Source: Parelaphostrongylus tenuis
Taxonomy: Eukaryota; Nematoda; Chromadorea; Rhabditida; Metastrongylidae
Direction of reading: 5' to 3'
DNA length: 64,000 bases
Assembly: GCA_019055375.1 (NCBI GenBank)
Contig: JAHQIW010001913.1
Coordinates: 1 to 64,000, forward strand
Within the stretch, counting starts at the first letter, position 1. Every line of letters begins with the position of its first letter. The notes under the pieces were generated by a model. It was not told the DNA's origin, did not search any database, and worked only from the letters and a program-made list of their open reading frames with translations. This document shows positions 1 through 59,145 of this stretch, in pieces. The translations under genes were made by a program, and so were the position numbers.

Positions 1-19
1 TCTTCTTATGGCTGCTACA

Positions 20-31
20 GCACAATAAAAA
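20..31. repeat. Left 12-bp target-site duplication of retrozyme A
   Basis: GCACAATAAAAA at 20-31 is repeated exactly at 494-505. The pair brackets the ribozyme-bearing insertion. The sequence before 31 and after 505 joins into one uninterrupted foldback-type subrepeat (GCTGCTACAGCACAATAAAAA then GTTTTCTTG), so this is an empty-site footprint and not a chance match. Confidence 0.88.
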
Positions 32-129
32 TCATCATAACATCATCCTACTTTGGGTGCTTAATTTTACTCGGCGTCGGTTCCTTTAGAGGATTGTTTA
101 CCTCAAGGGATCGACGGAACCGAGGGAGG

Positions 130-177
130 GTGCTACTGATGAGTCCCAATAGGACGAAATAGGCGCCTATATAGCAC
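130..177 (+). ncRNA. Hammerhead ribozyme, type I (family A copy 1)
   Basis: All invariant parts are present. Helix I pairs GTGCTA (130-135) with TAGCAC (172-177). The core CTGATGA is at 136-142. Helix II is GTCC (143-146) with GGAC (152-155) around loop CAATA. GAAA is at 156-159. Helix III is the near-loopless palindrome TAGGCGCCTA (160-169), closed by A159-T170. The cleavage triplet is ATA, so scission is predicted after A171. Helix I is the open helix, making this type I. Outside it, 119-129 and 178-191 can pair further around an internal loop, the usual place for the loop-loop contact that speeds cleavage. The core closely resembles that of published schistosome and PLE hammerheads. Activity is predicted, not shown. 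Confidence 0.95.
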
Positions 178-412
178 TAGACCTATGGCTCAAAATATGT
201 CATATCCTTATCAGATTAAATCATTTTGAGCGGGTCTGTAAAAAAAAGCAGTCGATAGAAGAAGTATAGTTCATTTTAAAAGCCGTAAGCTCGACTGCCG
301 GTCACCACAAAGTCAGGTAATAACATCATCCTACTTTGGGTGCTTAATTTTACTCGACGTCGGTTCCTTTAGAGGATTGTTTACCTCAAGGGATCGACGG
401 AACCGAGGGAGG

Positions 413-460
413 GTGCTACTGATGAGTCCCAATAGGACGAAATAGGCGCCTATATAGCAC
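413..460 (+). ncRNA. Hammerhead ribozyme, type I (family A copy 2)
   Basis: This copy is identical to copy 1 through the core. Helix I is GTGCTA (413-418) with TAGCAC (455-460), CTGATGA is at 419-425, helix II GTCC/GGAC encloses CAATA, GAAA follows, and helix III is the TAGGCGCCTA palindrome. Cleavage is predicted after A454. A transcript spanning both copies would be cut at 171/172 and 454/455, releasing a 283-nt monomer with the ends needed for ligation into a circle. The upstream unit differs by a single base in its early part (GGCGTCGG against GACGTCGG), so the two units are of similar, recent age. Confidence 0.95.
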
Positions 461-493
461 TAGACCTATGGCTCAAAATATGTCATATCCTTA

Positions 494-505
494 GCACAAT
501 AAAAA
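494..505. repeat. Right 12-bp target-site duplication of retrozyme A
   Basis: An exact repeat of 20-31. It follows directly after the end of the second ribozyme unit (CATATCCTTA). Confidence 0.88.
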
Positions 506-564: not shown

Positions 565-885
565 ATTTTGTTTCGAGTGTATTCTTAGGACTACGCTCAA
601 ATTTCAATACTTCTAATAATTATTTGCAGCCACGACCAATCGAGTTTACGACACTGATCTACTGATTTATTTCACATGGCGGCACGTGTAATGCACGTCG
701 TCGCCTGCTGTGTAAAGGGTTGGATTCTCTCCGAGAGAACTGGTTAAACTTGAAGGGCCTGCTCGACTGACGAGGCTGCCAAAGTCGAAAAACGTATATA
801 AAGTTCTATAAATGCCCACAGCAAACCACATGATATATTAGCTCAATTAATAATTATCAGATTGAAGCGATGTTGAAGCATTTCA
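565..885 (+). mobile_element. Family B hammerhead element, decayed copy
   Basis: The left end (569-632) is the reverse complement of the usual family B 3' segment (GGCTCAAATAATGATTATCA... to ...CACTCGAAAC). The right end (about 830-860) carries the same segment in direct orientation, so the copy has inverted ends. The ribozyme remnant is at 761-808: GCTCGA, CTGACGA, then GTC GAAA. The 3' strand of helix I (AAAGTT) no longer pairs, so no cleavage is expected. There is no coding sequence. Comparable copies lie near 6420, 16216, 18837, 21519 and 21833. Confidence 0.65.
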
Positions 886-6169: not shown

Positions 6170-6535
6170 CATCATACCGCTCATTTCCAGTGTTTTTCTT
6201 AAGACCACGCTCGAATTTCAAGTTTTTTCCTGAGAAAACACTCGAAATGAACGGTATAACCTATTTAAATATATTAGGCAAGACCAATCGTCTGTACAAA
6301 TACTTCCTATCTAGTGATTTTTACTTGGCAGAGTGTAGTGTAAGTCGTTTGTCGTCGCTTACTCTTAGTTTGGAGGCTGGGAGCACCTACAGAGGATTGG
6401 CTTAATGATGAGTGGTTTTGCCCGACTGGCGAGACTGTCAAGGTCGAAACATGTGTATCGGGCTATACAAAGCCCATTAACAGACCACATGACATGTTGG
6501 CTCAGATAACAAATATGAGAATAGCATAATATCAC
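6170..6535 (+). mobile_element. Family B hammerhead element copy
   Basis: The left part carries inverted-end sequence (CTTAAGACCACGCTCGAATT near 6205). The body then has the family B leader (GTCGTCGCTTACTCTTAGT near 6350, GAGCACCTACAGAGGATTGG near 6390), the ribozyme at 6420 and the 3' segment CCACATGACATGTTGGCTCA. No reading frame is conserved between copies. Confidence 0.68.
6420..6463 (+). ncRNA. Hammerhead ribozyme, family B, core mutated
   Basis: Helix I is intact: GCCCGA (6420-6425) pairs with TCGGGC (6458-6463). Helix II is GAC/GTC around a 7-nt loop. GAAA is at 6446-6449, followed by CATGTG and the TA cleavage dinucleotide (6456-6457). The core reads CTGGCGA in place of CTGACGA. The invariant A is changed to G, so this copy should be inactive although its fold survives. 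Confidence 0.75.
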
Positions 6536-10451: not shown

Positions 10452-11222
10452 GCATCGTTGGTGTTTGTCTATTATGAAGCGAGAAAAGAAAAGATGACCT
10501 CTTTCGCTGCATAAGAAGTTTTCATAGGGGTGTTTGTAATTATTCGAAAGTTTAGATTTGTGGCTACAGCCTCACACGGCCAGTTTATTAGTTTCGTTTG
10601 TGATTCCACACCTGTGCTTATACCCTGAAAAGACCGTTTTTCTGAAATGCAGCAACTAGAATAAGTTGAATCGCATTTATGAGCAAGAGGGTCTTTGTCC
10701 AATTCACGTGCCGATGGGTGTGATGGCCACGTGCACTACTAACGTGATACTTCTCTACGCTTTCATATGCTCGAAAATCTATGATCATCGTTCAAATGCT
10801 CAAAATTCTATAATCATCGCTTCAGCAGTCCACTGGTAGGCCACATCCAGCGGCACGTGAATTGGACAAAGATCCACTTGCTCACACATGCGAATTTAAC
10901 TTATTTTACTTGCTGCGTTGCAAAGAAGCGGTCTTTTTAAGAAATGAGCATAGCTGGAATTAGCAACATTGCGCTGTCGAATGATTATTGACAGTCCAAA
11001 GAAAAAGCTATCTCCGGTGAGAAAAATTTGCGAGTCTTAGCATAGCTTTATGCTGGATTTTACAGGGCTATGAAAGGGTCTTTTTGGAAACCGGTTGCAT
11101 AGAGCTCTAGCCACAAATCTAACATTTCGAATGATCGCTAACACTTCTATGAAAAGTTCCTGTTCAGCGAATAAGATCGGTTTTTCATTTTTTGCCTCAT
11201 AATGGACAAGCACCAGGTATTT
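10452..11222. mobile_element. Foldback element 2
   Basis: Terminal inverted repeats: TTGGTGTTTGTCTATTATGA at 10458 and its reverse partner TCATAATGGACAAGCACCAG at about 11199-11218. Both arms reach inward to a shared inner block: GGTCTTTGTCCAATTCACGTG near 10700 and its reverse complement CACGTGAATTGGACAAAGA near 10855. About 115 bp of unique centre (10735-10848) separates the arms. The left arm is shorter than the right, consistent with loss of one subrepeat. This is the clearest inner junction of the family. No protein is encoded. Confidence 0.75.
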
Positions 11223-15211: not shown

Positions 15212-16020
15212 GCTCCCTTTGCTTATGAGCTAACAAATGAAAAACCGACCTTATTCGCTACGCAAGAACCTTTCATAGGGAAATTAGTAACCATTCGAAA
15301 GCTGAGACTTTTGGGTACATACCCGGTTTTTCCAAACATCCTTTTATAATGCTGTGAAGCCCACACAAAGCTATGTGTCAGACGCGCATATTTCTCTCCG
15401 GACAAAGCTCTTTCTTTGGATTATCAGTAAACATTCAATAGCTTAATCATTGCTAATTGCAACGCTGTGCCCTTATGCTGAAAAGACCGTTTCTCTGGAT
15501 CGCGACAGGTAAAATAAGTTGGATTTGCATGTGCATCCAAAGAGGTCTTTGGCTAATTCACGTGCGGCCGGCTAAGGCGAACACGTGCGCTGAAGCAATG
15601 ATTGATCAGTCCTGGGCCGCTTCCATGACATCGCGTCAACAGCACGTGGTCGTCTTAGCCAGCCGCATGTGAGTTTGCCCAAGTCTCTCCAGGTTGCACA
15701 TGCGGATCCAGCTTAACTTACCTGCTACGTTCCAGAAAAGCGGTCTTTCTAGGATACAGGCATATCGTTGCAATCAGTAACGATTACCTATCGAATGATT
15801 ACTGATAGTCCAAGGAAAGAGCTCTGTTCGGCGAATAATATGCACGTCCGCAGAGCAAAAAATTTTCTTCTCTAGCAGTGTTAGAAAAGGCTTTTTCGCA
15901 AACTGGCGATGTGTGGCTGCAGCCTGAAATCTCAGCTTTCGAATATTTGCCAACACTTACACGAAAAGTTCCTGTCCAACAAACGAAGTCTGCTTTTCAT
16001 CCTCCTCCTTATAACCGAAT
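15212..16020. mobile_element. Foldback element 4 (most symmetric copy)
   Basis: Two arms of about 350-370 bp align block by block in inverted orientation. The left arm has AATGAAAAACCGACCTTATTCGC, AACCATTCGAAAGCTGAGACTT, CGGTTTTTCCAAACATCC, CTCCGGACAAAGCTCTTTC, ATTGCAACGCTGTGCC, AAAAGACCGTTTCTCTGG and GGATTTGCATGTGCATCC. The right arm returns through the same blocks reversed, from TTGCACATGCGGATCC (15696) to ACGAAGTCTGCTTTTCATCC (15985). The centre (about 15570-15690) is unique. There is no coding capacity. It would need transposase supplied from elsewhere; which family is unknown. Confidence 0.78.
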
Positions 16021-16099
16021 AGTACCGAGAAAAACTGTAGTACGGCTCGAACAAAATAAATAATAGGTGATTTTGTCTTTTCGGACAGTTCAGTGTACA

Positions 16100-16325
16100 A
16101 CACTGCTAATTTGGTTGCTTTCACTTGACGGATATGTAAATTATTTGTCGTGGCCTACTCTCAGTGTGGGAACTGGAGCACTCCAAAAGGATTGGCTAGA
16201 AAACGAAGAGCTCTTCCCGACTGACGAGAGTCAGGGTCGAAACACGTGTATCGGGCTGTACAAGGGCACGTTAACAGACCACATGACAAGTTAGCTCAAA
16301 TAGCAATAACGAGATATGTTTCAAA
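16100..16325 (+). mobile_element. Family B hammerhead element copy
   Basis: Leader GTCGTGGCCTACTCTCAGTG, then GGAGCACTCCAAAAGGATTGG, then the ribozyme at 16216, then the 3' segment ACAGACCACATGACAAGTTAGC TCAAATAGC. The upstream 16085-16110 (CAGTTCAGTGTACAACACT) matches the sequence between the two copies near 21700, so the unit extends further left than the leader. Confidence 0.68.
16216..16255 (+). ncRNA. Hammerhead ribozyme, family B, core intact
   Basis: CCCGA (16216-16220) pairs with TCGGG (16251-16255). CTGACGA is at 16221-16227, GAAA at 16239-16242, then CACGTG and the TA cleavage dinucleotide (cut predicted after 16250). The invariant core is complete. The weak point is helix II: GAGTCAGGGTC supports only two canonical pairs where other copies have three or four, so activity may be low. 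Confidence 0.8.
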
Positions 16326-17134: not shown

Positions 17135-18695
17135 ACTGGAATAGAAAGATAAAATTTTTATATGTTAGCACATTCGTTAAAACCCAAGACAGATTTGCAG
17201 TTCTTTGCTTAACCCATGAAGTTTTCAGGCCAATATTTCGTTTCCAGATTGGTCCTCTTTCCTGAACTCCCTACTCCCATCCTCATCTCATTCACTAATT
17301 AGGTTGTCGACTACATTTGAAGTTTACAAAAAGTGCATTTGGTAATAAAAAACTCAACTAACGTATGAGTTCTCCGATGAAGTCGTCATCAAGCCTCCCA
17401 TTTGATTGATACTTTCCTAGTTGAGCATTAATATCTTTTGAACTTCCGCTCGTTTGTCTTTTCTTAGGTCACCCACCATGGTAGTTGTCAATCGCTGATC
17501 ATTATGGATCAGAGGTTGTTCTCCTTTTCTGACTAAGAGATCATAAATCGAAACGATTCTCAGCACTGGAATCACAGTAGGTCGATCGTTTCTCAGATGG
17601 ACCTTTTTTGTTCGATAGCGTTGTACGTTTCTGTGTGCCCGTCGTAGCTTGGTACCCTTGTGCCATCACCTTACAGAACTAAGCCTGTAAGAGGAGAAGT
17701 TTCTGAACTTTTAGGGTGAAAAAGCATTCACTGGGGCATCATTGTCCTTCCTAAGAGTCGTCTGCACGGAAAAGTTTTGAAAATTCGTTTTTTTTTGAAT
17801 TTTCACATTGAACTCATCTAAATGCCATTCTATGTTCTATTCTGCTGATCACAGTATCTTTTTCCATTTTTTCGCATTCGTCATTGAGTAAGTTTTTAAG
17901 ATTTGCATTTAGAATCGCCTGCAACTTCATGACTATATGAATCGCCAAGTGCTAATTAGATTGGTTCCCTCCAGAAATCTGAGGGAACACTAATAGAGTT
18001 CTCAGTTTGTCGCATTTTGTCCGGATCTGAGAAGTTCTAGTACAAATGTGTCGACTCAGTAATAATTGGGATTTGTTGACCCGAGCTAAGTCGAACCAGT
18101 GACTACTGTATGCACTGCACGACATCTCCTACTGAGTTTGCAGCTCATTAGTGTAAAATCAGCAGGTCAGGTCACCATAACGAGAGATCGGCACGTAATA
18201 CAACTAGTGAGGCATAAAGAATATTTTTTCATTAATTTAATTATAGGTGTACCTTTTCTTTCTTTGTATTTGAAAATGTTTTTCTTCTCTTGACGACTTT
18301 ACCGCACCTCTTTTTGCTAAGAGAACTCAGATTCAATTTATTGATCAAAGGAATTTCAACATGAGGAGAGGCAGAACATTCTGCTCTGTTGAAGTCGTCG
18401 AAAAATTTAGCTGTGTTCTAGTATTGAGTGCTTCATGTAAGTTTATCTAAAGGCCAGTCCTGACGCAGTAGAGAACGGTGAAGGAAAAGGTCGAGATGAC
18501 ACTGTTGATGAATTTGAACTATATAATGCCGCTTCGGATATTCTTGATCCAAAATAATCAAAACATTTTTCTTTGTGAAAAAGGCGTAATAAAAACTTGT
18601 GATATAATTTACCTAAAGCAGTATCATCTTAGACCAGATGAATATCGTTAACTGAAGTGTAAATCCGAATGCGCATAGTCTAATCAGTCTGGCGG
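17135..18695. other. No recognisable gene
   Basis: I see no conserved motif, repeat boundary or ribozyme core. The only frames are short and isolated. Confidence 0.45.
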
Positions 18696-18699
18696 TACC

Positions 18700-18950
18700 C
18701 TTCGTCTTTTGCCAACCCCTCGGGGTGCTCCAGTCCACCATAGTAAAGGTATATCGAGTAAAATGTTCATCGTCACCTACTCTTAATGTGGGGTACTGCA
18801 GCACACCGAGAGGACTGGCAAAGGACAAAGGGCACCGCCCGAGTTTTGAGACTGTCAAGGTCGAAATACATGTATCGGGCTTCATAAGTTGCCCTACAAC
18901 ACACCACATGCATGGCTCAAAAATCATTATCAGGCATACTGAAGATTAAT
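18700..18950 (+). mobile_element. Family B hammerhead element copy with inverted leader
   Basis: Positions 18700-18745 are the reverse complement of the family B leader (GTCTTTTGCC...GGGTGCTCCAGTCCACCA). The leader is then repeated in direct orientation at 18770-18835 (ACCTACTCTTAATGTGGGG, GAGAGGACTGGCAAAGGAC). The ribozyme remnant (18837) and the 3' segment CACACCACATGCATGGCTCA follow. The local head-to-head arrangement parallels that of the 21400 and 57677 copies. Confidence 0.66.
18837..18880 (+). ncRNA. Hammerhead ribozyme remnant, family B
   Basis: Helix I is intact (GCCCGA 18837-18842 with TCGGGC 18875-18880). GAC/GTC of helix II and GAAA (18863-18866) are also present. CTGACGA has become GTTTTGA and helix III is changed to TACATG. 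Catalysis is not expected. Confidence 0.7.
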
Positions 18951-18959
18951 ACTATTGTG

Positions 18960-21395
18960 GTGGACATGATAGCCGTTGGTGATTTATAGCTCATGACATT
19001 TTACAATGCAAGATCCAAAATGAAGTTGATCATATTTACATATGTCGATATTTCTTCAAGTCGTTGTGTATAATTCCTTTTCGATAGAAAAAAAAGCAGA
19101 AATTAGCACTTTCCGTAGAAGGAATTTCTGAGCCATTAAACCAGAGTGCCCATATGCGCAAGTATAGTGTCTACGTATCTCTGACCCTAGAATGCAGTAA
19201 GGACACTAGGAAGTGTGTTGTCAGTGTTGCCAATTCAGTGGGTTTGGTCACTTTTCAAACACATGTGGATCCATTCTACAGCGAGTCAAGAAGCAGATTT
19301 AGATGGGAGGACTGAGACAAGTTAAGTAATCCTTGAAAACTTGATTACAAAGCACCTTTCTATGAAGAAGTTTGTTAACCATTAAATTTTCTGGAACCTT
19401 CTAAGACTTGAATATTTCATTGCTTTAGTAGCAACTTGACATACCCGACGTCTTTGTCAGCTTGTTCCATTTTATAAAATTTTTCACATAGGTTTGAGTC
19501 GTGAACGATGTCATTGTACAGCTTTTCATGTAGGTTTAGCTTTTTCGGAAACTATGCTAATTGGTCGAAAACAGTACCGTGTCATCGATCACTTCCGCCA
19601 ATGAAGCACATCTAATGCTATAGCTCTTGTTAAATTATCCGTTTTTGGGTCTTTTTATTGTAAAAAAAAGAAGGCTCACCTGGAAAATATCTATATAATA
19701 TGAGCATATTATCTAATTGATGAGGTTGAGATAACGAAAGTGATGCGTGAGTGATGGATGGCGCAAGTGTATTAAGAGGCAAGGTGAAAAGTAAAACTCT
19801 GGTTCGATCCCCTTCCTTCTCAAATATTCTCCTGAAATCAATCAACTTGGTTTCGCCTTAGCTCGGCTATCCCCAAGAGTACAAAAAATTTGTCTCGACC
19901 AGCATTTATGTAAAACAATTTTTTAAAAAAAAAGGAGAAAATTCCCAAGCAGCGAGCGAAATGTTCGAAAATATATTTGGAGGAGAATGCGAGGAACTGC
20001 GGCGAGTGTAAGAAATGTTAGGACACGCGAAGTAATTTGTTATGAGGGTTCGTCTAGAGTGAAAAAAATTTCAGAACAGCTACGTTACTTGTGTAATGAT
20101 CTGTTCTCACTTAATCGTAGTGAAAGATAGGGAGTCAACGTCACTAAAAATGTCGGTTGCTTTCTTCGCTTGAAAATAGATGGGACTACATCATTTCGCT
20201 ACTTTCATGCCACTTCGAAACACAAGGTGAAGATTTGAGAAACTATTTTTTTTGTTTAGAGAACCTTTTTAGCAATAACATGAACTAATTAGAACAGAAG
20301 TAAGACTACAGTAGATTCTGTATGGTCATGAACATGATTGACTTTGCGGGCTTAATTGGCAATATCTTGTTGAGCTAATAGTACGCCGATATTTCTCCCA
20401 ATAACTCTTTAGTTGCGGTAAGTCATACTTTCTTAAATTTTGTGAGATCAAGTACTGTATGGTACTGTCGGCTTAGTACGTGATTCTCTAAAAAGTTTTG
20501 GCTACTTAGGCGTTATTTTTGAAACAGACTACAGCGTCCTTTTTTATTTTTTATTTCTGTGCGAAGCGTCTGTTCAAGCTAATCGTTTGAATGTTCGTTT
20601 TACGAGAAAATGTTGATGTAGGTGGTGACTTTACCTATAAATCGTTTCTGCTGTACCTCTGTACTTTACTTCTCGTAGTTTCTTTTAAGGTGAATGTTTT
20701 GCAAACTGATTCTTAGAAATGGGCTGATATTCCGCTCCATTAATATGATCAATATGACCAATATGACCAACTCGATTTAGATTGTAAATCCGTCCTTTGA
20801 ATGTCGATGCCCAACGAATCCACAGCAATTTTTATTGCTACACTTAATGTGCAGTGATCAGCTGGTCGGTTGAGTAATCACAGGAATCACAAATGTCATA
20901 GGAATCGCTGTCGACCTGGGAAAGTTCGACGACTACATGTCCTGTAGACCTAAGCGACGCCTATTTTACCTTCTAATGAGGATTTCATCGACTCTGAACA
21001 GCATTTGACATGCTAATGGGCAAAGAAGACAATACAATTCCGGAATACACATTGAAACAGGTGCAGAAATACCGACGTATGGATGGCGATTGGAAAGCTT
21101 GAGCAACCATTTATCTATGTGCCTGAGCAGACAATGTGCATTAGTCATTCAATCTTTGTGCAATACTTCTATTCGTTGGTAAGTTTGATTAATCTCTTTG
21201 CCTTTGAAACACTACACGTGATCAGTTTCATGCACATTGAATGTTAAGGAAATCAACACGGAGCATTTATATCGGGCAATACTAGGCAATACAGTATATC
21301 GACCGCTTCTACCGTGAGTCCTCTGGACTCACTACTGTCTACTTTATATAAAGAAATATCTGGCCCATTCTGAGCAGGTGAAAACGTTTTCATCA
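18960..21395. other. No recognisable gene
   Basis: About 2.4 kb of AT-rich sequence. A short direct repeat (ATATGACCA units) is near 20745. No element or coding signature was recognised. The longest frame (19630-19845 -) has no family features. Confidence 0.45.
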
Positions 21396-21399
21396 TTTT

Positions 21400-21665
21400 C
21401 GTTTCGAGTGTTTACTTAAGACCACTGCTCAAATTTTAAAATGCCTGATAATCAATATGTGAGCCACGTATATCAGTGGTCTGTCAATGAGGGAGACGAA
21501 AGACGAGAAAGGGTAACTGCCCGACTGACGAGATCGCAAGATCGAAACACGTGTATAGGGCTCTGTAAGTCAGCCCTCATTGACAGACCACTGACATGCG
21601 TGGCTCAAATAATGATTATCAGGCATATTGAAATTTGAGCAGTGGTTTCAAGAAAACACGAAACG
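21400..21665 (+). mobile_element. Family B hammerhead element in a palindrome
   Basis: Two arms of about 93 bp (21400-21494 and 21574-21665) are inverted copies of the family B 3' segment: GTTTCG...ACCACTGCTCAAATT, GCCTGATAATCA, GAGCCACG, CAGTGGTCTGTCAATGAGGG, and the reverse on the right. The 79-bp spacer holds a hammerhead (21519-21561). A transcript would fold into a long hairpin with the ribozyme at its tip. In other copies the left side is the unrelated leader, so this palindrome is a rearranged head-to-head copy. Confidence 0.75.
21519..21561 (+). ncRNA. Hammerhead ribozyme, family B, near-intact
   Basis: CTGACGA is at 21525-21531. Helix II is a perfect GATC/GATC stem closed by a GCAA tetraloop. 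GAAA is at 21544-21547, then CACGTG, with TA at 21554-21555. Helix I pairs GCCCGA (21519-21524) with TAGGGC (21556-21561) with one G-A mismatch. The core is complete, so weak activity is possible. Confidence 0.82.
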
Positions 21666-21734
21666 AAAGTTATAATCTTTTGAATATACCAGCCAAGAGC
21701 AGTTGAGTGTCCAACACTCTATGTTGGTGAGTTT

Positions 21735-21945
21735 TTCACTGAACATAGAGTGTAAAACGTTCGTCGTCGCTAACTCTTAGTGTGGGGACTGGAACTCCCA
21801 CAGAGATTAGCAAAAGACGAGAAAGGGTAATCGCCCGACCGACGAGATCGCAAGATCGAAACACGTGTATCGGGCTCTATAAGTCAGACTTCATTGACAG
21901 ATCACATGACATGCGTGGCTCAAATAATGATTATCAGGAGCTTTC
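21735..21945 (+). mobile_element. Family B hammerhead element copy
   Basis: Leader AAAACGTTCGTCGTCGCTAAC, GTGTGGGGACTGGAACTCCC, then the ribozyme at 21833 and the 3' segment GATCACATGACATGCGTGGC to TGATTATCAGG. Its ribozyme lies 314 bp from the 21519 copy in the same orientation, so the pair may be a tandem dimer. Confidence 0.7.
21833..21875 (+). ncRNA. Hammerhead ribozyme, family B, one core change
   Basis: Helix I (GCCCGA 21833-21838 with TCGGGC 21870-21875), helix II (GATC-GCAA-GATC), GAAA and CACGTG-TA are all intact. The core reads CCGACGA: the invariant U4 is C, which should inactivate it. Confidence 0.8.
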
Positions 21946-21949
21946 ATTA

Positions 21950-23880
21950 TTGTTTAGTGTCCAATCTTTCACGCGGTCTTCCACACATTTCCTCTCTTTT
22001 TGTGTGTCTGAAAGTATGCATTGATAATAAATGATCATAACCTAATCAATGTATTTTCCCCCACTGATAACTTAGGATTGTCCTACTGCTTTAGCTTCAT
22101 TGAGATTTTGTGCAGTTTTATGGTCTTTAGATCAGTCTCGTTGACGTTCAATTGCGACGTTAGCTAAAGCAGCATAAAACTTGGGTGAAACGGAAATAAA
22201 GCGAAGGCATTTGTATATATCCACAAGACAACGCCATTCTTTGCACAATGTGGCCTCTTGTTCTGGAAATCACCTTTTAGCCGTTCCTTTTATCACTGAT
22301 CGAATAAATGTGACTGAGATATTCTCTGAAGTGATCAGCTCGTATCACAGCCATTTTAGTTCACTACTACTGTCAATCCTATTGTGACGTAAAATCTTCC
22401 TTTTTGGATTAAGGCTGCTCAAGAGATGTCTAATTGTTCTTGGACTCATAAAACTGTATGTTGATACCTGAAAAGAAGCCGTAGAAAAGGAGAAAGAATA
22501 TAGACCATTCCTTCTTTGTCATTTTAACAAGTCTTGAAAGCTTTACCATCATAACATCGCTACATCAAAGCATTTTTCGTAAAAAAAAGCTTTTTTCAGA
22601 ACACCTGAAAGATTCACTTTCAGAAAGTGTCAAAATTTGGACGGGCACTATATTTTCTGCTTTTCTATACTTCATGTCTGAAGAGTGGCCTATCGCGGCT
22701 TCTATCCGGTGGCTATCTGCTGCGAAAGTAGAGGTGCCTATGATTGGGTGATTTTCAAGTATTTTCTTAGCTCAGTCAATTGATTTCGTTCCATTTCAAG
22801 TCCTAATATGGATTCTAATCTAGCGGTGTGGTTTTTGATAAGTAATTTTGTCTCTTCAGTACCAGGTTGTTTGGGAGAATCTGACTTCTTGCAGCACGCA
22901 TAGTAATGCCCCAGCGCTACTCTCAGTATTCTCCGGAGAAAATGTATTAGCTCGCCTATCAAGTCATGTAAAATAATAAAAAATGAAATTTGTTTAAGAG
23001 TGTTTCCTTGAATATATATGTTACGTAACTCTAAGAGAATCTTCAAAATAAAGCACACGTAGAATGTCTTGTTATCACGCGTGATAACACACGATACACG
23101 CGAATAACATCATTGAATGAGAAAGGCGGTACTCCCACTGTCATGTCAACGCTCTACGGCTGGTTGCTCAACGTAGAGCTTCCAGTGTCAGGTCTACAGA
23201 AAGCGGTGAGTGTGTTCAAAAGATCTTTTGTGTCGGCTTCGACTGCAATCTAGGTCTTGTCTGTTTTCCTATTGGGTTAATGGAGTTGCTTGGGTGGCCG
23301 CCAAGTTCCACCAGTCAACTTCATTTTTCCAGGCTTTGAAGGAAGTGAAATGTGTTTCGAAACGTTAGCTGTCGCAAATGAATTCTATTCCAATGACCTT
23401 CATGTCTGGGGTGAATTGCAGATCGTTGGGACTGTGTTTGAATAATAATGTGTTCATTGCTCGTTGCTCTTTACTATGAGTGAACGAGTAAGAAAATGAC
23501 TAGGTCAATCCATTTTTTACTCCTCTATGACCTGTTTTGATTGACGCACTGTTGAAGTGGTCTAGGACTGTGACAATTTAATGACTCCACCGGCAATTCT
23601 CGCTCTCCTCGTATTACCAAAACATTCATTGCTCATCGTCCTCATGGTTTTTCTCTGCATTGCTCATTATTCCTCTTCATCCTCTGTTGATCGGTCGCGC
23701 TCTTCACAGTGTTCACTTTTGCAATATAATTGATATTAGCACCAGATATGGTTCCAAATTTGGTGGGGCCATGCAATCGCAGAAGATTGTGGGCAAGAGA
23801 ACATATGCCACGATGAAGCTATTCACGCCAATCGTGGCCAACTAGATAATCCCTTGAAAGACAATGTGGGATATTATTTT
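21950..23880. other. Unassigned; one lysine/glutamate-rich frame
   Basis: The minus-strand frame 22738-23058 (106 codons) ends in a charged, helix-like stretch (TARLESILGLEMERNQLTEL). It has no family match I know and no paralogue here. A perfect 17-bp palindrome, TTATCACGCGTGATAAC-like, lies near 23071-23089. Nothing else is recognised. Confidence 0.35.
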
Positions 23881-33874: not shown

Positions 33875-34085
33875 AAGAAGTGGGGCGCATGAGACGCAGA
33901 TGAAAGAGGTGTCCTGCGACACATATAGTAGTCGATTCTATCCCGCGCTCCATTTTACCAAATGTTCCACCTCCCGCAATCTGTAAATTGGACTCGTAAA
34001 TATCTGGGAAGATACCAACACTGGAGCGATATATCATTAGTCAAGTAGAAGTCATAGTAAAAGCCAGATATACGTATAATCTCCT
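33875..34085 (+). repeat. tRNA-derived SINE, copy 6
   Basis: Head GGGGCGCATGAGACGCAGATG, CCTGCGACACATATAG, degraded B-box CGATTCTATCCCGCGCTCC, and body CAAATGTTCCACCTCCCG, CTGGGAAGA and AAAGCCAGATATACGTATAATC. Strongly decayed. Confidence 0.6.
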
Positions 34086-34694
34086 CACACGATGTTAAGC
34101 GAAGAATTATGCACAGCTCACCCCTCAAGCACTAGTGAATGTCAGAAACTTTACTTCTCGTTCTTTTACGCCAAAAAGGACTGCACCCCTTGTCGTTTTT
34201 TACGAAGCTTTTTTGAGCTATCAAGAATCAGTTTCACCGCCGAATGTGTAACGGTGACAATGACACAGCTGTTGCCATCGGAAAGAAAACCAGCATTGTG
34301 TCATTCCATGTCTCCTAAGTCGTATTCCACTTTTCGACCTCGGTTTTTGATAATTTACGGCTGCCATTGCATTTTGGCTATTTTCAAACCAGCATTTCAA
34401 ATTACACGGTAATACAAAGGGTCAGGTTATCGAAAACACATTCTGGTGAAAATTGAAAGTCGAGCTGTGAGGTGACAATAGTAAGACTTTCTTGCAAACT
34501 CACTAGGTACTACGTCGATTTTTCGCGTGACACGCGACGCGACGCGCTCTTCAATAACAGTGTGGTAGTTTTCTGATGAAATTTAGACCTTATTCATAAC
34601 CAGATAGTAGAGAGCGACGCAAGACATTTTATTGAGTCTTTCTGTAACTGCACAGAATGTATACAGATGAAGCTGTTAGCATTCATTTCTTCTG

Positions 34695-46504: not shown

Positions 46505-47470
46505 GCTCTCGCCGCTTATTAACCCTTGTTGAGAAATGGTGATATGGTAGCTATCTGGTCGGTCTGGTCCACCAGCGACTTTCTCCTACTGTACATCTCG
46601 ACGACTTCAAACTTGTTCATGGCTTTCCAGTCACCCCTGCGCAGTTTTCCTTCCATGACCTCCTCAGGCAAACCTTTCCTGCTCTTTCTTGATGTTCCAA
46701 TAAAGTATGGATTGCTTTGCAGTAGACTCTGAGCTAGGGCGACGCTGGAGTACCAGTTATCGGCAAAACGGTGCCTTCTTTCATTCAGAAGATCCTTCAT
46801 TGGTACCTTTACTAGAAAATCTGCAAGTGGCTCGTTCGGTGTCGGATTTGTGCCAGCATCTATGTACACCATCGTTTTGTAGGTGTACCCGCCTTTATCA
46901 CAAAATTCAAATAGTTTGTTCCATACCTGCTTCTTTTGCAAGATGCATGATGGCAGAATTCCATTCGTCCTCTGAATGGCACTATCTACTCATCGATATA
47001 CACGTCTCCCCATGATTTGAATGGGTCCTTGCAACTATTATTGACAAGCTCCAGCATTGGTCTTATTTTGTATAACTTGCCGTTCACATCGTGACCCATA
47101 TTGTTGCTTACATGCAAGTGGGTCGTGATCTCGAAGAAGCGATCCCCAACATAAGATGCGATGCTATGGGAACTCCCAAAAGATGCGGGCAATCGCTCCA
47201 GTAATCGTAGTGCCTTGTCAATCGTATAATGGTCATTTTGAGGCACAGGTCTAAGAAGATCCTCATTTCTTCAATCGTTATATCTTTTCATCAATCTTTT
47301 TTTTGTTGACCATATATATTGATTTGCTCAACAATTGACTCCCAAACGTCCTTCGTAAACAGTTCATAAAATTCCGATGGAGTTTCAGACCCGAAGATGG
47401 TAAGGATGTTGCAAAACACTAGCGACCTATGCAATAGAATGAGATTTATTGTTTTATCTTCACAAGCACT
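46505..47470 (-). pseudogene. piggyBac-family transposase pseudogene
   Basis: Reading from 47470 down: ETPSEFYELFTKDVWESIVE with QINIYGQQKK (47390-47290), YVGDRFFEITTHLHVSNNMG (47160-47100), KLYKIRPMLELVNN, then DVYIDE, a stop at about 46988, IVPFRGRMEF and KRSRYGTNYLNF across a frameshift. Next come KGGYTYKTMVYIDAG, the block FADNWYSSVALAQSLL with a catalytic aspartate, and NPYFIGTSRKSRKGLPEEVM. These are the DDE_Tnp_1_7 landmarks in order. The first catalytic aspartate (IDE) and the second (DNWYSS) are present. The final aspartate, the MGGVD region and the Cys-rich C-terminus are missing after 46519. The remnant is about half a transposase. No TTAA ends were found. The unbroken 140-codon stretch at 46519-46941 suggests moderate age. 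Confidence 0.85.
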
Positions 47471-57666: not shown

Positions 57667-57676
57667 GAAAAGGCTT
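57667..57676. repeat. Left flank duplication of the palindromic retrozyme
   Basis: GAAAAGGCTT at 57667-57676 recurs at 58203-58212, bracketing the inverted ribozyme pair. At 10 bp it is shorter than the 12-bp duplication at 20-31, and its exact limit is uncertain by one or two bases. Confidence 0.68.
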
Positions 57677-57776
57677 TTAAAATGAACTATACTTCTGCTA
57701 TCGACTGCTTTTTTACAGACCTGCTCAAAATGATTTAATCTGATAAGGATATGACATATTTTGAGCCATAGGTCTA

Positions 57777-57822
57777 GTGATATAGGCGCTTATTTCGTCC
57801 TATTGGGACTCATCAGTAGCAC
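57777..57822 (-). ncRNA. Hammerhead ribozyme, family A copy 3, damaged
   Basis: On the minus strand, GTGCTA, CTGATGA, GTCC-CAATA-GGAC and GAAA are intact. Helix III has one mismatch (TAAGCGCCTA), and the 3' strand of helix I has lost two bases (TCAC in place of TAGCAC). The core is complete but helix I is broken, so activity should be poor or absent. Confidence 0.88.
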
Positions 57823-58115
57823 CCTCCCTCGGTTCCGTCAATCCCTTGAGGTGAAATACAATTCTAAGGGAATCGACGCCGAGTAAAAATTAAGCACCCA
57901 TAGTAGGATGATGGTATTACCTGACTTTGTGGTGACCGGCAGTCGAGCTTGCGGCTTAGCAGAAGTATAGTTTATTTTAAAAGCCGCAAGCTCGACTGCC
58001 GGTTACCACAAAGTCAGGTAATACCATCATCCTACTTTGGGTGCATCATTTTTACTCGGCGTCGATTCCCTTAGAGGATTATTTCACCTCAAGGGATCGA
58101 CGGAACCGAGGGAGG

Positions 58116-58163
58116 GTGCTACTGATGAGTCCCAACAGGACGAAATAGGCGCCTATATAGCAC
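58116..58163 (+). ncRNA. Hammerhead ribozyme, type I (family A copy 4)
   Basis: Helix I is GTGCTA (58116-58121) with TAGCAC (58158-58163). CTGATGA is at 58122-58128. Helix II is GTCC/GGAC with loop CAACA, one base different from copies 1 and 2. GAAA is at 58142-58145, helix III TAGGCGCCTA, and cleavage is predicted after A58157. The core is intact. Conservation of core and helices while the loop varies fits selection for the fold. Confidence 0.95.
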
Positions 58164-58202
58164 TAGACCTATGGCTCAAAATATGTCATATCCTTATAAA
58201 AA

Positions 58203-59145
58203 GAAAAGGCTTAGTACTTATTAGTGTAAGAATTAAGAAGGTGAGTTTTTCACATTTTTCAACCCTCGAGAGATGTGCAGCGTATTCGCCTTCAGTTGGC
58301 ATCGTTAGAGGCGATTAAACACATGTCTGGTCTTCACTGTCACTTACAGTTGGCGCTGGAGATGAAGAGCTTGGTGAGCCTGAAGCTCGGGATTGAACCG
58401 ATCACCACGAGTGTGTTGTAGGACTCTTCTCTCATTTGCGCATCACTCGCTCCATTTTTCAGCGTATTGGCTCGAAATGTAGCAATCCAGGAAGGCATCT
58501 ATTTCTTTATGAGCTTTTGGCTTATTATGACAAGTGCACGTTGATTTTACTTTCTCGGTAGGTCATCATTAATCCGAATCCGTATGAAACATTCAATGAT
58601 ATTTAACTGTCGCTTCACCTACTGCAACAGTTTTGATTTGTAAGCAACCTCAATTACAATTAGATGGCTTGTTGTTTTCTTAATTTGTTATTGACAAGTA
58701 TATTTCTATTCTTCCCATAACTTGGACGACACATCATTATTAAGAGAGAATTTCAATCGATTTTTGTAGGTAACTGTAGACTATACTATTTTATTGATAA
58801 GCTAGCACAACGTTCTTGTGATTCCTTATTATGCCCAACGGTTGGTGGTTTTGTCAACAAAGCAACACTAATTTTGTTCGGGTGTCTTGTAATTGCTTTT
58901 TTCTTCAACTCCGATCTTGGTAATTGCTAAACGAATCGGGCATGATAGTTCACCGCGCGAATGATGAAGTGTTCTTTGCAACGCTTTCTCATAAGTAATG
59001 GAGCACTAAAGTCGCTTTACTCTATCGTTCCCACCTCTTATTTCAAACATTTTACTTCTTCATCGGCCACTACCGTCATGCTCACTCGCTTTTTCTTCTT
59101 CTTCGTTAACGTTGTAAATTAGATTTAGCAAGTCTCCTTGAATTC
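58203..59145. other. No recognisable gene
   Basis: Begins with the right flank duplication (58203-58212). Nothing coding or repetitive was identified in the rest. Confidence 0.4.

Follow-up and report, generated by a model that had tools for sequence, protein, structure and literature searches.

Hammerhead insertions in the window

The window analysed here, a stretch of 64,000 nucleotides from the nematode Parelaphostrongylus tenuis, carries two insertions of one family of hammerhead-bearing repeats (family 1) and five loci of an older hammerhead family with a unit of about 314 nt (family 2; Table 1). The left flank of insertion 1 is only 31 bp long, because the contig begins at base 1 of the window. 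This insertion holds two type I hammerheads, one per 283-nt unit and identical letter for letter, whose canonical fold has helices of 6, 4 and 4 bp (-10.1 kcal/mol); the minimum free energy fold of the 48-nt motif (-10.2 kcal/mol) differs from the canonical one. The Rfam model RF00163 matches each hammerhead with 29.5 bits (E 5.4e-5 for 1 kb, 0.0034 for 64 kb), and a scan at the gathering threshold lists nothing, since the curated cut-off is 34 bits. Reaching from one predicted cut site to the next, the monomer folds at -87.0 kcal/mol, as compared to a shuffle mean of -66.6 kcal/mol, and is more stable than 200 of 200 shuffles (z -4.2). No stop-to-stop frame of at least 110 aa overlaps positions 32-505.

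A first-pass annotation of this DNA had described a pair of intact hammerheads at a spacing of 283 bp, which is confirmed, and a perfect flanking direct repeat of 12 bp, which is real and extends to 13 bp; it is the sole identical 12-mer pair with a spacing of 470-478 in the window. The same annotation had located the insertion inside a foldback-type repeat, whereas insertion 1 lies outside one, about 60 bp to its left; the repeat in question is probably the element at 566-860, a decayed hammerhead element of another family. It had also spoken of a complete non-coding mobile unit. Mobility is borne out by the duplications found around 34 of 38 insertions of the family (see below), and completeness is not, insertion 1 being a 5'-truncated 1.65-mer. 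No unfilled paralog of insertion 1 was found via its joined flanks within the sequence examined. The left flanks of insertion 1 (window positions 1-31) and of another copy, L049, are alike (GCTGCTACA...ACAATAAAAAG), and perhaps one repeat was targeted twice.

Insertion 2 (57677-58202), absent from the first-pass annotation, is a second copy of the same family. It has the 3' end CATATCCTTA in common with insertion 1, and its first half is inverted. The hammerhead of its forward arm (58116-58163) is intact, and that of its inverted arm (57772-57822) is damaged in helix I. A repeat copy at 34525-34049 aligns to the joined flanks of insertion 2 without the insert, and the site of this insertion therefore has an unfilled counterpart.

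Table 1. Positions of the elements, their parts and flanking duplications in the window
Feature	Position	Strand	Remarks
Left target-site duplication, insertion 1	19-31	.	AGCACAATAAAAA, 13 bp, perfect
Insertion 1	32-492	+	1.65-unit tandem of 283-nt retrozyme unit; single orientation; 5' end truncated
Type I hammerhead	130-177	+	predicted UA cut 171/172; CUGAUGA + GAAA cores
283-nt monomer between both predicted cut sites	172-454	+	
Predicted hairpin, loop holding site A (~210)	179-237	+	stems AGACC/GGTCT, GCTCAAAAT/ATTTTGAGC
Site B region, second 3' terminus among genome copies	248-270	+	GCAGTCGATAG[A/C]AGAAG...
Type I hammerhead	413-460	+	predicted UA cut 454/455; CUGAUGA + GAAA cores
Site A, 3' terminus of insertion 1	484-493	+	CATATCCTTA; last A common to duplication
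Right target-site duplication, insertion 1	493-505	.	AGCACAATAAAAA, 13 bp
Family 2 element, decayed	566-860	+	left arm inverted, stopping near its site B; right end its site A
Family 2 element	6171-6520	+	left arm inverted, reaching site B; right end site A; duplication diverged (by eye)
Family 2 element	16086-16315	+	no inverted arm found
Family 2 element	18679-18943	+	head-to-head, other end points
Family 2 element	21397-21937	+	period 314, inverted left arm
Paralogous unfilled site of insertion 2	34049-34525	-	joined flanks align insert-free, 71% over 479 columns
Left target-site duplication, insertion 2	57667-57676	.	GAAAAGGCTT
Insertion 2, inverted arm	57677-57956	-	ends past site B, 22 nt after GTCGATA
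Insertion 2, forward arm	57957-58202	+	ends at site A (~58196)
Right target-site duplication, insertion 2	58203-58212	.	GAAAAGGCTT

Other repeats of the window are of different kinds. A fragment at 46519-46989 on the minus strand matches DDE_Tnp_1_7 (PF13843; E 7e-12), the piggyBac-type transposase family, and the region at about 977-1960 on the plus strand resembles a decayed mariner-type transposase, although its 133-aa ORF has no Pfam match. The repeat at 10609-10956 is self-complementary (72% over 355 columns) and has relatives in other places, among them 15223-15603; neither a descriptor scan nor an Rfam model scan found a hammerhead in it.

Dispersed copies, paired ends and arm haplotypes

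The genome (481,506,261 bases on 5105 contigs) was searched with the retrozyme unit. Out of 1625 candidate places the best 40 were scored, giving 128 matches at 40 places on 38 contigs. The 39 places outside the window and the two window insertions make 41, from which L060-L062 were left out of all counts as being the same insertion as L059, leaving 38 distinct insertions; young and intact copies are over-represented among them, because the best-scoring places were sampled. The insertion L059-L062 is present four times with identical flanks, on three contigs of which C3537 has two copies, and its copies represent a segmental duplication or haplotigs.

Further dispersed copies with duplications, the absence of which the first-pass annotation had taken as refuting its reading, are present: an exact duplication of at least 8 bp flanks 34 of the 38 insertions, as against 7.0% of 1406 mismatched flank pairs. 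Duplications reach at least 10 bp in 30 of the 38, the median over all 38 is 12, and in the 33 orientable insertions the duplicated sequence is richer in A+T (76%) than the adjoining flanks (69.5%). The tandem units are 283 bp long, with one ribozyme each and up to 13.7 units per arm. Among these best-scoring copies, a choice biased to intact sequence, the core pattern CTGATGAG..CGAAA occurs 145 times at loci with 146 hammerhead-spanning units, and the exact 48-nt hammerhead consensus occurs 127 times. The dispersed family, its duplications and the type I hammerheads with intact core support the retrozyme reading, and the feature is almost certainly one copy of a mobile, non-autonomous, non-LTR animal retrozyme, the RNA of which is predicted from its sequence to cut itself into pieces of 283 bases. 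The exact hammerhead query had no match in viral_contigs and genome_contigs, the latter sets possibly leaving out the window's own genome. Purifying selection on the hammerhead was also considered: 0 of 14 shared and 4 of 41 private variants fall within its 48 of 283 nt, a weak signal, as the chance of 0 in 14 is about 7%.

The insertions differ in architecture. In 25 of the 38 an inverted array and a forward array stand head to head, with a variable junction point and two arms of unequal length (about 0.2 to 13.7 units), and the other 13 have a single orientation. Their 3' termini fall at two places, which we call sites A and B. Ends at site A fall 0-15 nt downstream of ATATCC, as a rule some 39 nt beyond the ribozyme cut, and site A itself is placed in the loop of a predicted hairpin in both retrozyme families (the apical loop in family 1); site B is situated about 54 nt further on, the B ends lying 2-13 nt after GTCGATA in 22 of 23 A/B insertions, with insertion 2 (W2) as an outlier at 22 nt. 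A duplication of at least 8 bp accompanies 24 of the 25 head-to-head insertions, and 23 of these 24 have one A and one B end, the sites having been recognised on the very insertions in which they were then counted. With independent ends at even odds, the probability of at least 23 mixed pairs in 24 would be about 1.5 in a million. Of all 34 duplicated insertions, 23 have A and B as their outer ends, nine have A and a truncated side, one (L055) has B and a truncated side, and one (L054, which is without a site B end) has A and an unclassified end. This count leaves out L038, L039, L042 and L050, which have no duplication of 8 bp; L042 resembles the A/B type by eye. The A ends inspected by eye showed no poly(A) tail. 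As 9 of the 10 one-sided duplicated copies end at site A, we infer that A may be the first-strand primer and B the second. What is new here is this integration anatomy of head-to-head arrays with paired A/B ends; a two-ended head-to-head architecture of retrozymes was not found in the literature searched on retrozymes, Penelope and nematode hammerheads, some of it in partial text.

In family 2, paired ends resembling those of family 1 occur at three of the five loci of the window (566-860, 6171-6520 and 21397-21937), where the inverted left arm stops about 50 nt past site A and the right end is at site A. Because the automatic alignments overrun these ends, they were placed by eye. The predicted hairpin around site A of family 2 is similar to that of family 1, and in the region from the cut to site B the two families are alike, with only 1 of 1000 shuffles scoring as high. 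The element at 21397-21937 retains a hammerhead (21519-21561) with an intact core and one mismatch in helix I, and a diverged duplication (21386-21397 / 21940-21951, 10 of 12 positions by eye). The core letters are also intact in the hammerheads of 566-860 (about 761-767), where helix I is lost, and at 16215, where part of helix II is lost; those at 21833, 6420 and 18837 have core changes. Pieces of family 2 in both orientations (66-78% identity) were further observed at positions 2-434 of the locus L082, near a Penelope-like element.

The sequence variants of the units bear on how many templates were used per insertion. Mean unit identity is 99.46% within an arm (261 pairs), and 99.16% between the arms of one insertion (174 pairs); between insertions, for which no more than three units per arm were used, it is 98.51% (7778 pairs). 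Haplotypes were defined as the consensus at seven polymorphic sites and compared in insertions with at least four comparable sites; among 24 head-to-head loci (L036 was left out, its short arm being under the length limit) four had fewer. The two arms have identical haplotypes in 17 of the remaining 20 insertions, as against 180 of 1626 random arm pairs (11%), and none of 2000 permutations reaches 17, a sign of one template per insertion. Three of the seven sites distinguish the two arms of L043, whereas a single site does so in insertion 2 and likewise in L046. Fixed differences between arms number 0 in 13 of 24 insertions, 1-2 in nine, five in L043 and 12 in insertion 2.

Within arms, 50 of 235 unit pairs are of unlike haplotype. 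Eight arms have at least four long units, and five of them (both arms of L035 and the plus arms of L043, L046 and L059) are without any site whose minor allele occurs in at least two units; the 13.7-unit arm of L035 has four variable positions, two of them internal singletons and two at its overextended outer end. A monomer circle as template would fit many of the arms. In L057, L068 and one arm of L046 the variants are mixed unit by unit in no simple order, so that some arms would require a second RNA or a multimeric one, or else mutation and conversion at a later time.

Penelope-like elements and other known systems

Penelope-like elements (PLEs) are present in this genome. The best 150 of 1723 candidates from a GIY-YIG search were scored, some of which form opposed neighbouring pairs, and RVT_1 occurs together with GIY-YIG in three ORFs, in L083 (893 aa), L085 (894 aa) and L086 (550 aa). 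Among the named matches of the PLE protein, those to Necator, Ancylostoma and Haemonchus score best, which, like the SL1-like matches described below, points to a strongylid nematode; identity is 52-73% over the nine leading matches, the top one (73%) being nameless, and a search of solved structures with this protein gave no match. The PLEs carry a minimal hammerhead-like motif in the context GAAACGTC, read as a hammerhead in line with those described for PLEs. Their 3' ends were scanned at 15 loci (L071-L085), three of which (L074, L079 and L080) gave no end, and one of the 16 rows obtained was internal. The resulting 15 ends lie past the cut by 56-75 nt (nine), 105-117 nt (three) and 20-49 nt (three), values in which alignment ends may overrun. 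Three PLE insertions have opposed ends and a 12-bp word common to both flanks, namely L083 (+110/+60), L084 (+101/+62) and L082 (+111/+39, the short end falling outside the main short cluster), while the longest common word in 21 unrelated flank pairs is 10. For the opposed ends of L086 the longest common word is a palindrome within the element.

Sequence kinship between retrozymes and PLEs was also looked for. The words GCTCAAA before A and CAGTCG before B had suggested a relation of the A/B region to PLEs, which was abandoned, as the alignment is no better than those of shuffles: for the region from the cut to B of the retrozyme, the local alignment to one reference PLE is equalled by 949 of 1000 shuffles, and 191 of 1000 score as high for family 2. 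No partner PLE is named, because there is no significant similarity to this one reference.

The published systems are compared here from excerpts of the papers cited. The element shares with metazoan non-LTR retrozymes type I hammerheads, tandem units of 170-400 nt, low GC content, the non-coding character, duplications of more than 4 bp and the presence of PLEs in the same genomes (PMC7229834). That 2020 work, which defined animal retrozymes, regards PLEs as a strong candidate on account of shared hammerheads, tandem copies and co-occurrence. By the features examined, i.e., the core, unit length, lack of a long frame, dispersal and duplications, our element is a metazoan non-LTR retrozyme. 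The excerpts of PMC7229834 describe direct tandem repeats and are silent on head-to-head arrays, on a pair of fixed 3' termini and on internal starts; their list of invertebrates, which ends with 'among others', names no nematodes.

PLEs are known to have a head-to-head inverted pLTR, an optional 31-bp tail on one copy and duplications of 8-10 bp, the head-to-head copies being explained by self-priming on an antisense template (PMC3846280). The PLE protein of Anolis cuts and extends both strands, and reverse transcription starts internally at two RNA sites that bound the tail, the start site being alike on top and bottom strands; the hammerhead (PAc) was dispensable for insertion in vitro and failed to cleave in the absence of protein (PMC11167929). 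The retrozyme insertions are similar in their head-to-head inverted copy, a tail at only one end of the two, duplications around 10 bp in length, a hammerhead upstream of the tail and an internal start of reverse transcription (PMC3846280; PMC11167929). Differently from PLEs, the retrozyme is without a long ORF, its unit has about one tenth of the length of the PLE ORF, its hammerhead is fuller (helix III of 4 bp), and it has no sequence similarity to the reference PLE. The ORF with reverse transcriptase and GIY-YIG that marks an autonomous PLE is lacking in 32-505. The element itself is no PLE, and its insertions resemble PLE insertions.

The W-elements of Schistosoma are likewise satellite-like hammerhead repeats, for which a duplication and inverted repeats were noted; compared by description only, the excerpts describe no paired ends (PMC8490949). 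Plant LTR retrozymes have in common the hammerhead in repeats, and the plant elements form circular RNA, but they differ in their type III hammerheads, LTRs with PBS and PPT, and 4-bp duplications (PMC4918200; PMC7229834). Helix III of family 2 is short and has a palindromic tetraloop (ACGT), as in the hammerhead satellites of newt and axolotl, whereas that of family 1 is longer, this comparison resting on descriptions and not on monomer sequences (PMC7229834).

Possible mechanism of insertion

We propose that a tandem retrozyme copy would be transcribed and its RNA cut by the hammerheads into 283-nt units, which would probably be ligated to circles. A Penelope-like reverse transcriptase with a GIY-YIG endonuclease would take this RNA in trans, the PLE enzyme would nick both target strands about 12 bp apart, and reverse transcription would begin inside the RNA, with site A, which lies in the hairpin loop some 39 nt beyond the cut, as the start for one target strand, and site B, roughly another 54 nt along, as the start for the other. 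Repeated laps would give multimers of up to 13.7 units. The two cDNAs would then meet head to head, or the A-primed cDNA alone would be kept, joined to the flank and 5'-truncated. Judged from the similar paired ends of PLEs, PLE-type bidirectional target-primed reverse transcription of a circular or multimeric ribozyme RNA is probably what moves the retrozyme. More tentatively, and with a slightly less than even chance in our estimate, one RNA, probably circular, would offer two fixed internal starts, A for the first cDNA and B for the second, each used by one target strand. The strict division of A and B between the strands fares less well, because no strand difference in the start site was seen with the Anolis protein (PMC11167929).

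Mobilisation by a LINE through ordinary target-primed reverse transcription, with inverted arms made by twin priming, appears improbable. Duplications of about 12 bp and 5'-truncated copies would suit LINEs, and the 15-bp duplications of Nematostella repeats have been likened to LINE mobilisation (PMC4918200). Insertion 2 can be read as twin priming, with the microhomology GGCTT at its left junction, and for this copy alone twin priming with target microhomology was attractive. In twin priming, however, the inverted part begins at places varying with the target; it was set aside because the genome copies show a fixed second end, within 2-13 nt after GTCGATA in all but one of the 23 A/B insertions. 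The absence of a visible poly(A) tail at site A ends and the similar paired ends in PLEs of the same genome also argue against a LINE. It is scarcely credible that the locus is an immobile satellite or local tandem duplication in which a hammerhead arose by chance, even if the window copy by itself is a 1.65-mer and metazoan hammerheads were first found in satellite DNA (PMC7229834), since the best 40 places are spread over 38 contigs, 34 of the 38 insertions have duplications and insertion 2 has an unfilled paralog. A DNA transposon of the foldback or MITE-like kind, having long inverted arms, would account for the 25 copies built as large inverted repeats, of which 24 are flanked by a duplication of 8 bp or more, but its arms would hardly be expected to range from about 0.2 to 13.7 units around a varying central junction, to have unlike outer ends (A and B) or to lack the inverted arm in 13 of 38 copies, and we regard it as very unlikely.

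Two further alternatives keep the PLE enzyme. For the same element and enzyme, the template could be a linear multimeric transcript of an old array, no circle being involved. The mixed unit variants of L057, L068 and one L046 arm and the in vitro dispensability of the PAc hammerhead (PMC11167929) agree with such a template, the uniformity of five of the eight arms with at least four long units does not, and we consider it possible although unlikely. Less likely still is the mechanism put forward for rotifer PLEs (PMC3846280), in which self-priming on an antisense template, and not priming from both target strands, would produce the inverted arm: in 23 of the 34 duplicated insertions both outer ends are fixed ends of the 3' type (A and B) beside the duplication, the arms differ in length, and a second fixed start is not obviously expected.

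The combination of A/B ends with head-to-head arrays provides an anatomical fingerprint that can be checked in any animal genome and hints at the moving enzyme. The paired ends also suggest the nature of the long-known PLE tail and predict two start sites of reverse transcription. If the strand-split reading of the bidirectional PLE-type mechanism is true, it would represent a distinct form of bidirectional target-primed reverse transcription, with labour divided between two RNA sites, and the PLE 'tail' would be explained as the second-strand start.

Two minor observations concern spliced-leader sequences. Just past the array duplication, the right flank of L035 has a 15-nt match to the 3' part of the nematode SL1 sequence, and this is possibly a retrotransposed trans-spliced message. 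Contig C3131 contains 36 SL1-like matches among the best 50 of 138192 candidates scored, most of them 568 bp apart, with 44-47 bits (curated cut-off 75).
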